A DNA stretch of 64,000 nt from Pseudomonas muyukensis (GTDB lineage: Bacteria; Pseudomonadota; Gammaproteobacteria; Pseudomonadales; Pseudomonadaceae), in assembly GCF_019139535.1 (NCBI RefSeq), contig NZ_CP077073.1:2260501-2324500 (forward strand). Direction: 5' to 3'. This document shows positions 49,657 through 50,584 of this stretch, one piece after another. The number at the start of each line of letters is the position of its first letter. Within the stretch, counting starts at the first letter, position 1. Position numbers and translations under genes: made by a program. Below the pieces are notes generated by a model that was not told where the DNA came from, did not search any database, and saw nothing but the letters and a program-made list of their open reading frames with translations.

Positions 49657-49710
49657 ATATTCACCTTGGCAGCCAGCCTTTCCCCTTAGATACCCATCTA
49701 TATCAACTTC

Positions 49711-49740
49711 TTGCTCTTGCTCTTGCTCTTGCTCTTGCTC
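49711..49740 (+). repeat. Hexanucleotide microsatellite (TTGCTC)5
   Basis: Five perfect tandem TTGCTC units, outer left boundary of the composite inverted repeat. Its mirror on the other side is (TTGCTG)6 on the opposite strand. Confidence 0.95.
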
Positions 49741-49773
49741 TGTTTTTGATTTTGCTTCTAAGTGCGCGATAGT

Positions 49774-50047
49774 TCAGGCGCCGCCAATTGCGACTTCAGG
49801 AGGCCGAGTGGAGTTCTTGCGTAGTGGGGCGACGGCCATGGATGGCCGTCGAGCGCTGCGCCCCAGGATGGGGCGTACAGCGCGGTACCCACGGGAGCAA
49901 GAACGGAGCGAGGGGACCCCGGAGCGCAGCGTAGGGGCCGGATGAATGGAGCGAGGATTTTTTGGTTCCTTTTTGATCCTTCAAAAAGGGACCCGCCGTA
50001 AGGGCGGAAAGGTGACTATGCGTCGCCATCGCCAATGAATGCGCGTA
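49774..50047. repeat. Composite inverted repeat, left arm
   Basis: About 270 nt that match, by eye at roughly 75 percent, the reverse complement of 50127-50411. Four hairpins in order: 49831-49850 (GACGGCC/GGCCGTC), 49859-49875 (CGCCCC/GGGGCG), 49968-49989 (CCTTTTTGA/TCAAAAAGG) and 49993-50007 (CCGCC/GGCGG). A 79-codon frame of doubtful meaning (49796-50035, minus) lies inside. The 928 nt between DUF1285 and the cupin gene holds only this element and its partner. Confidence 0.85.
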
Positions 50048-50070
50048 TAGCTTTCAAAACTCACGCTCTG

Positions 50071-50100
50071 AAAGTCAAAGTCAAAGTCAAAGTCAAAGTC
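50071..50100 (+). repeat. Hexanucleotide microsatellite (AAAGTC)5
   Basis: Five perfect AAAGTC units exactly at the centre of the composite inverted repeat, between the two arms. Confidence 0.95.
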
Positions 50101-50126
50101 GGTCGGTGTGTGTATTTACAGGTGTA

Positions 50127-50411
50127 AGCGCATTCATTGGCTATATCGACGCTTAGTCACCTTTTCGCCCTTACGGCGAGTCACTTTTTGTCAAACGCGA
50201 CAAAAAGTAACCAAAAAACGCTGCGCTCCATTCATCCGGCCCTACGCTTCGCTCCGGGTTCCCTCACTCCGGCCTTGCTCCCGGGAGGACCGCGCTGTAG
50301 GGCCCATCCTGGGCCCCAGCGCTTGACGGGCATCCATGCCCGTCACCTCCCTACGCAAGGCCTGCGTTCGGCCTCCTGAAGTCGCGAAGTTACGGGCGGC
50401 GCCTGGGCTAG
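50127..50411. repeat. Composite inverted repeat, right arm
   Basis: Inverted partner of 49774-50047. The same four hairpins occur with changed but still paired bases: 50165-50179 (TCGCC/GGCGA), 50183-50208 (ACTTTTTGTC/GACAAAAAGT), 50300-50316 (GGGCCC/GGGCCC) and 50325-50344 (GACGGGC/GCCCGTC). An 80-codon frame (50137-50379, plus) resembles the one in the left arm. Similar short hypothetical frames are, as far as I recall, frequently annotated between genes in Pseudomonas genomes. Confidence 0.85.
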
Positions 50412-50457
50412 CGCAGCTGTCGCTCGCTGGGGTTGACGCTAGCCTTTTGATCGGTGA

Positions 50458-50493
50458 CAGCAACAGCAACAGCAACAGCAACAGCAACAGCAA
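50458..50493 (+). repeat. Hexanucleotide microsatellite (CAGCAA)6
   Basis: Six perfect CAGCAA units, that is (TTGCTG)6 on the minus strand, mirroring the (TTGCTC)5 at 49711. Outer right boundary of the composite element. Confidence 0.95.
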
Positions 50494-50584
50494 CATCGGC
50501 CTCCCGGTTTTTTCGTGAATTGGCCATTTGTCCTCGTCAACTCCGGGCTTAACCTGAAAGTAGATGCCACTCAGGAGAAACCCG

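Follow-up and report, generated by a model that had tools for sequence, protein, structure and literature searches.

What kind of element occupies 49.7–50.5 kb of the 64,000-nucleotide stretch of the Pseudomonas muyukensis chromosome analyzed here (the window), and why do its hairpins stay paired where their sequences differ? It consists of two arms in opposite orientation, L and R, of about 280–290 nt each, with tandem arrays at both ends and between them (Table 1), and no coding gene was seen inside it. A first-pass annotation of the sequence had described two such arms differing at about a quarter of their positions and had singled out four hairpins exchanged by double changes. The arms are indeed 78% alike over about 650 nt, and repeat finding returns inverted repeat pairs of 130 nt (83%), 83 nt (83%), and 40 nt (78%) besides shorter ones. 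All four exchanges are present, i.e., GACGGCC/GGCCGTC versus GACGGGC/GCCCGTC, CGCCCC/GGGGCG versus GGGCCC/GGGCCC, CCTTTTTGA/TCAAAAAGG versus ACTTTTTGTC/GACAAAAAGT, and CCGCC/GGCGG versus TCGCC/GGCGA. A fifth one can be added, as the stem that closes the 5' domain, GTTCTTGC/GCAAGAAC in the L arm, reads GGCCTTGC/GCAAGGCC in the other arm, and further additions are perfect arrays of hexamers, one in the center and one at either end, as well as 19 more of these composites in the same genome.

Table 1. Features of the window element (positions are those of the window).
Feature	Position	Strand	Basis or remark
Left terminal tandem array, TCTTGC x5.5	49709..49741	.	perfect-repeat detection
L arm, outer to inner end, pointing ori to ter	49767..50055	+	profile match, L003 2068-2356
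Closing stem GTTCTTGC/GCAAGAAC (49813-49820 with 49897-49904) and enclosed domain	49813..49904	+	sequence; 8-pair helix
TwoAYGGAY RNA match (RF01731)	49826..49889	+	42.6 bits, gathering score 43, E 2.8e-5
Hairpin GACGGCC-ATGGAT-GGCCGTC, GGA loop	49831..49850	+	sequence
Hairpin CGCCCC-AGGAT-GGGGCG, GGA loop	49859..49875	+	sequence
Hairpin GGTTCCTTTTTGA/TCAAAAAGGGACC, including CCTTTTTGA/TCAAAAAGG	49964..49993	+	repeat finding, consensus fold
Small hairpin CCGCC-GTAAG-GGCGG	49993..50007	+	followed by T run on the other strand (terminator-like)
Central tandem array, AAAGTC x5	50071..50100	.	perfect-repeat detection
R arm, inverted, pointing ter to ori	50118..50414	-	profile match, L003 2419-2715
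Small hairpin TCGCC/GGCGA of R arm	50165..50179	-	terminator-like on + strand
R-arm hairpin ACTTTTTGTC/GACAAAAAGT	50180..50211	-	repeat finding; IS3/IS150-type insertion here in relatives (presumed type)
TwoAYGGAY RNA match	50288..50347	-	41.4 bits, E 5.2e-5
Hairpin GGGCCC/GGGCCC	50300..50316	-	sequence
Hairpin GACGGGC-ATGGAT-GCCCGTC	50325..50344	-	sequence
Right terminal tandem array, ACAGCA x6.5	50457..50495	.	flank of unoccupied relatives resumes directly after it

Evidence for a Conserved Fold of the Arm

A consensus fold was obtained from a 64-member non-redundant alignment drawn from a set of 209 arms, which comprises neither arms ending before model position 240 or starting after position 40 nor loci L094 and L101. 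Arms retain a closing stem, a terminal hairpin, a small hairpin, and, in most subfamilies, two hairpins with GGA loops. Read on the strand opposite to the arm, the small hairpin is in each case followed by a run of T. Covariation was scored on alignment A1 of 39 diverse arms (41 core references had been kept of 46, and two with insertions were dropped). All 20 predicted pairs are changed on both sides in A1. Paired cells amount to 94.7%, compared with 69.3% in shuffled alignments and 40.8–50.2% in slid structures, and the covariation score is 0.735, compared with 0.273 for shuffles and at most 0.174 for slid structures, a control that is biased in favor of the fold because the structure was derived from these sequences themselves. 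None of 500 shuffles, which do not preserve the relatedness of the arms, reaches the observed value for pairing or for covariation. The covariation, higher than in every one of the 500 shuffles and in each of the six slid structures, is not due to chance, and a conserved fold of the arm is strongly supported by the aligned sequences. In the closing stem, which joins segments 76 nt apart, all eight pairs covary with changes on both sides, and both strands are far more stable than their dinucleotide shuffles (mean z of -4.4 and -4.5). The earlier suggestion of selection on a folded RNA or single-stranded DNA is therefore sustained as far as the conserved fold is concerned; as to the nature of the folded molecule, the data fit RNA and single-stranded DNA alike. 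The giant cruciform into which the whole element was proposed to fold is not needed, as each arm is constrained internally and other species commonly have arms that stand alone.

Which of the two strands folds was judged from the numbers of G-U and A-C cells. Counted over three helices that had been selected irrespective of these cells, they amount to 116 G-U versus 18 A-C, the ratio predicted from composition being 1.02. The excess is carried by the closing stem (46 versus 2 cells, from 14 versus 2 genomes) and by the terminal hairpin (63 versus 2 cells, from 17 versus 2 genomes, all 63 in two pairs). Counts for the first hairpin are 30 versus 17, for the short helix inside the closing stem 7 versus 14, and for the second hairpin, where two subtypes align poorly, 6 versus 28 and 3 versus 5. 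Folding energy is better on the arm strand for 200 of the 209 arms with DNA parameters and for 196 with RNA parameters; this difference reflects composition, since it disappears with dinucleotide shuffles, against which the z-scores of both strands are equal (mean of -4.43 versus -4.54, the arm strand being lower in 32 of 64 arms), and folding energy is not counted as evidence for the strand. Favored by two helices, though not proved, the arm strand as the folding strand is moderately supported.

Relation to the TwoAYGGAY RNA Motif

At the gathering score of Rfam no match is found in the window, which is why the element had looked unexplained; this view needs amendment in that both arms overlap the motif TwoAYGGAY (RF01731) in a permissive Rfam search, with scores just below the cut-off (Table 1). 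Among 15 family loci scanned, 10 have a TwoAYGGAY match and five have none; the cut-off is passed by five of the 15, one in the same genome (L017, score of 43.7) and four in other genomes (L036, L147, L052, and L182), and it is also passed by L178, which lies outside the family. The first loop of the window copies is AUGGAU and the second AGGAU, the latter being AUGGAU or AGGGAU in some other subfamilies. Hairpins with GGA loops and stems of at least five pairs occur in 54 of the 64 non-redundant arms, compared with 31% in mononucleotide shuffles, and loops such as AUGGAU are constant while their stems vary.

TwoAYGGAY has been listed as a probable RNA in the human gut, γ-Proteobacteria, and Clostridiales (PMC2864571) and has been proposed to bind CsrA (PMC4333381). 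PrrB/RsmZ belongs to the same Rfam clan. GGA loops are absent in a second subtype, encountered in genomes G005, G011, G007, G016, and G003 and in some arms of G199, and because this subtype has lost them, binding of a regulator would not be a family-wide property. In second-subtype loci L073, L078, L084, L089, and L083, GAA or GCA triloops (GCGNAGC) replace the GGA loops. GCGNAGC hairpins are a class of very stable DNA mini-hairpins.

A Dispersed Family in the Genus Pseudomonas

The host chromosome (5.53 Mb, one contig) harbors at least 20 composites plus fragments, a lower bound as 40 of 58 candidate places were scored. Eleven composites show the order of the window element (LR) and nine have their arms back to back (RL). 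Other LR copies are 89–98% like the window copy, and the two arms within one composite are about 74–79% alike. Of the relatives searched by DNA, 17 of 18 Pseudomonas genomes other than the host carry the family, as opposed to none of 10 from outside the genus. An exact 40-mer of the L arm occurs in Pseudomonas entomophila, P. soli, P. mosselii, P. peradeniyensis, and P. sp. RIT623, in a search from which the record of the host genome itself was possibly excluded. Other species possess single arms or pairs of other subfamilies, and among the matches listed in the surveys of relatives about 3 to 31 arms are detected per genome. The unit of the family is one arm of about 280 nt that occurs singly or in inverted pairs.

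Beyond the genus, model R1 has a strong match in G370, which belongs to another genus of the family, and weak matches in G431 (five), G217 (two), and G449, G481, and G297 (one each); with strict filters it matches 7 of 274 genomes of the class, the host genome included. The five R1 matches of G431, from another family of the class (L172–L176), show a similar layout, in which a closing stem is accompanied by GCGNAGC-type hairpins and by a long terminal hairpin, for example GTGACTTCTTTGC/GCAAAGAAGTCAC; they are possibly distant or convergent relatives. Searched with the host's own subfamily, 72,556 plasmids yielded one short match, and 50,697 phages yielded no match.

With rough gene calls, no single rule for neighboring genes emerged among the 20 composites, and all three gene arrangements occur around LR pairs. 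At RL pairs, the left gene runs into the arm against the arm's strand in eight of nine cases; L014, typed as LR in this analysis due to a remnant third arm, is actually an RL pair. A terminator between convergent genes as a neighbor rule is not supported by gene orientation around the 20 composites.

At L057:1380-2408 in G010, a 342-codon gene, which we take to be IS110-family-like, lies between two back-to-back arms. An insertion of about 1.45 kb, presumably of the IS3/IS150 type, is found at the identical point of the R-arm hairpin in L126, L127, L128, L129, and L132 (G119) and in L157 (G112); ORFs of 180 and 199 codons are present in these six fetched copies from two genomes. In L129 the insertion lies in reverse orientation at this point, which suggests that the insertion targets the hairpin.

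Tandem Arrays at the Ends of the Composites

Both junctions of the window element are covered by variable tandem arrays, which would mask any target-site duplication or short fixed target motif. A detector of at least three perfect copies of a 5–12-mer, applied to arms spanning at least 120 model positions, finds terminal arrays on the left in 16 and on the right in 18 of the 20 composites, and central arrays in 19. The same detector finds none in 71,526 nt of composite flanks, and in the 64-kb window none beyond the three of the window element. The terminal arrays, on 34 of 40 composite ends, represent 21 distinct units, and 29 of the 34 are A+C-rich on the outward strand, at both ends. At the locus orthologous to that of the window, the left array is built of GCTCTT units in the host genome, of GCTTT units in G119, and of TTGATC units in G112, G183, and G199. 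Because orthologous left units differ and the flank of unoccupied relatives resumes directly after the right array, the arrays belong to the element and change in place. Insertion into pre-existing tandem repeats is ruled out, as the two ends mostly differ in unit and the outward strand is A+C-rich in the proportion just given. In L011:1701-2070 the left end is duplicated, with a piece of the arm's outer end between two long 11-mer arrays. Arrays built on differing units at the composite ends look new, and copy-specific units are an unusual ending for a bacterial repeat.

Age and Probable Homogenization of the Copies

The left gene of the window's locus is present in 198 genomes, and 29 of these loci were read. 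The element is present in five of them (G119, G179, G112, G183, and G199), and no arm was detected in 23, several of which have a different right neighbor. In the remaining one, L103 of G136, a decayed arm remnant of 49 nt is all that is kept, so that the element can be lost again. When the flanks of the 20 composites were compared with 45 element loci from G119, G112, G199, G179, and G183, 12 composites adjoined an element locus of a relative with both flanks and 18 with at least one, L010 having no match and L015 a weak one. Relative to the orthologue, the best paralogue is closer in 30 of 31 cases, a best-of-many comparison that favors paralogues; the median paralogue is closer in only 19 of 31. 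Mean identity is 89.9% to the orthologue and 91.1% to the median paralogue, with two comparisons from G199 at 77–78% versus 96%. These values can be read as old insertions under concerted evolution.

The flanks of L004, L011, and L023 each adjoin two different copies in G119, those of L011 on either side of dif, and rearrangement breakpoints thus fall at elements. L007 and L014 match the inner sides of the two G119 copies flanking L023. The G119 counterparts of L005 and L008 are on the opposite replichore, with polarity retained. Taken together, the switch of L005 and L008 and the breakpoint pattern fit ori-ter-symmetric inversions between copies; a bias towards such inversions has been reported for many prokaryotes (PMC5850607). 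Comparison of L007, L014, and L023 with L128 and L131 points to an element-bounded segment of about 29 kb that appears to have different replichore positions in G119 and the host genome, with L023 left as a fragment. Old insertions common to several species, copies alike within a genome, and breakpoints at copies form a pattern that looks new.

Orientation with Respect to Replication

In the host chromosome dnaA is located at 0.666 Mb and a dif-like site at 3.418 Mb. All nine composites of one replichore lie on the + strand and all 11 of the other on the - strand; by arm type, 20 of 20 L arms point from ori to ter and 20 of 20 R arms from ter to ori. Of the fetched arms of G119, 35 of 36 follow the expected direction (L 19/19, R 16/17). 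The distinction of L and R works poorly in G199, where two L and six R arms are as expected and four R arms are not (4/12 misfits); the six main matches to the window element in this genome agree with the polarity. In the draft genome G112, contig C1 has three loci beyond dif with the wrong orientation, perhaps owing to an assembly join.

Single arms were counted by eye in nine genomes, among at most 150 candidates per genome, arms less than 2 kb from an opposite detected arm being set aside as pairs. Among the matches listed, 73 of 75 single arms in six relatives point from ter to ori (G005 13/13, G072 21/21, G108 23/23, G010 8/9, G017 7/8, and G172 1/1) and eight of eight in three others from ori to ter (G003 6/6, G012 1/1, and G075 1/1), copies being partly shared by descent among related species, so that genomes do not represent independent tests. 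These counts treat two neighboring same-way arms of G010 as single, include one short fragment each in G072 and G108, and include one arm of G005 although a truncated arm of opposite orientation lies at a distance of 0.6 kb (L079). When the arms of G017 with strong scores are taken, single and paired alike, 12 of 13 run from ter to ori. G015 is mixed (7/16 of the loci fetched), and with arms 96–98% alike it has the youngest-looking family. A REP-like pattern gave only two matches in the host genome, too few to serve as a background control for the polarity counts.

Two simple accounts of the polarity were considered and found wanting. The arm pointing from ori to ter is the weaker one in 20 of 20 loci in the host genome (G000), 13 of 15 in G119, and 6 of 11 in G112, and in 9 of 19 pairs in G017, G072, G108, and G172, so that replicative stability, by which the stronger hairpin is kept off one template, is not a general account. 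Strand-limited conversion as the determinant of arm type is not supported either, as G015 mixes both arm types on both replichores.

In most of the genomes examined, the direction of the arms follows replication, a relation that looks new. No description of the repeat, its arrays, or its polarity was recognized among the matches listed in a literature search with incomplete journal coverage, and the combination of inverted pairing, copy-specific arrays, homogenization, and replication polarity was not encountered in the literature searched. The bias within genomes (73/75, versus 8/8 the opposite way) demands a mechanism, be it fork-coupled insertion, purging of wrong-way copies, or function, and these three candidates make different predictions.

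Possible Origin and Role of the Family

The reading that we prefer, tentatively and with slightly less than even confidence, is that of a family of structured-RNA repeats, dispersed over the chromosome, whose copies gene conversion keeps alike. The arm strand would fold as RNA. Readthrough from a neighboring gene into the outer end would generate an RNA carrying the folded arm, whose GGA loops might bind a regulator of the RsmA/CsrA type. At an LR composite, whichever side a transcript came from, it would run through one arm in sense and might terminate in the other, a possible stop that is suggested by the small hairpin followed by a T run on the opposite strand. Ectopic recombination would homogenize the copies and fix their polarity: copies of the same ori-ter direction on opposite replichores would recombine to give tolerated ori-ter-symmetric inversions, and wrong-way copies would cause harmful rearrangements and be lost. 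Short hexamer-like ends probably gave rise to the arrays by slippage, and the arrays would turn over where they are. The opposite sign in G003, G012, and G075 and the mixed state of G015 fit such a history of purging better than insertion into a fixed strand. Against purging it can be held that arms 78–92% alike should recombine rarely and that 73 of 75 is a stronger bias than expected from purging alone; against the reading as a whole, A-C cells outnumber G-U cells in two inner helices, and the energy difference between strands is lost after composition control.

A serious, if rather doubtful, alternative is a non-autonomous single-strand DNA transposon, moved in trans by a hairpin-recognizing HUH transposase of the IS200/IS605 or REP-associated type and inserting into one template strand at replication forks, so that its orientation records fork direction. 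It stays serious because single-strand transposons produce such polarity; insertion orientation of IS200/IS605 and of Tn7 with TnsE is reported to follow replication (PMC5371812). The strong ter-to-ori bias of single arms in six genomes among the matches listed (73/75), the conserved hairpins of dispersed copies in which no coding gene was seen, and fold data that leave RNA and single-stranded DNA unseparated agree with it. However, polarity is absent from G015 (7/16), the genome with the most similar copies, the few single arms listed for G003, G012, and G075 (6, 1, and 1) run the opposite way, many loci are common to several species, only one plasmid match was obtained, and the IS110-family-like gene (our assignment) between the arms of L057 is a single case.

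Unlikely, in our estimate, is that the family acts as a replication-polar landmark, its arms running one way on each replichore, switching at dif, and serving as joints for ori-ter-symmetric inversions; if so, a repeat family would shape which rearrangements the chromosome survives. Still less probable is a polar mark serving the host, akin to FtsK-orienting or architecture-imparting sequences and made of a structured element instead of an octamer. The near-perfect switch of polarity at dif within genomes, the restriction to chromosomes save for one short plasmid match in the plasmid and phage collections searched, and retention at the same loci across species would suit a mark of this kind, but about 3 to 31 arms per genome (among the matches listed), a sign that is reversed in three genomes and lacking in G015, and composites that carry one arm each way do not. 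Template-switch (quasipalindrome) correction during replication makes double changes, and hairpins kept perfect in this manner, with no fold under selection, would be compatible with the exchange of whole hairpins between copies and with inner hairpins lacking an arm-strand G-U excess, but equal Watson-Crick repair on both strands is then predicted and not the G-U to A-C counts of 46/2 and 63/2, the closing stem covaries at all eight pairs across 76 nt, and loops are constant while stems vary, so that this explanation is very improbable.

Comparison with Known Repeat Systems

Like REP, REPIN, and BIME sequences, the family is intergenic, palindromic, and often arranged in inverted pairs in Pseudomonas. 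REP units measure 20–40 bp (PMC3733652); the unit here is multibranched and comprises about 280 nt, and it is not a palindrome of 20–40 bp. The families R0–R200 of Pseudomonas are likewise dispersed intergenic stem-loop repeats, and R26 (352 bp) and R200 (320 bp) are of similar size (PMC2718517); the descriptions in the available text of that article, the basis of a comparison made by description and not by sequence, contain neither arrays nor replication polarity. A MITE with constant terminal inverted repeats does not describe the family, as 21 distinct units occur among the 34 terminal arrays of 20 composites. Orientation following replication is reported for IS200/IS605 (PMC5371812) and resembles the bias in most genomes examined here, whereas the element here has no gene inside, its sign differs between genomes, and its youngest-looking family is unpolarized.

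CsrB/RsmZ-type sponge RNAs likewise carry GGA motifs in hairpin loops, but there are two loops per arm here, and the arms are known from sequence and not as free-standing RNA genes. There is also a likeness to TwoAYGGAY, which has two hairpins with A-N-GGA-type loops inside a covarying stem and whose published range includes the γ-Proteobacteria (PMC2864571). What the family described here adds is a terminal hairpin and tandem arrays, the pairing of arms in inverted orientation, presence in many copies per genome, and a polarity with respect to replication, and the window copies lie slightly under the cut-off with AGGAU as second loop. Because the core of its fold is a known Rfam motif, the family is not categorically new; a known RNA motif to which no function has been assigned is thereby tied to a large family of dispersed repeats.
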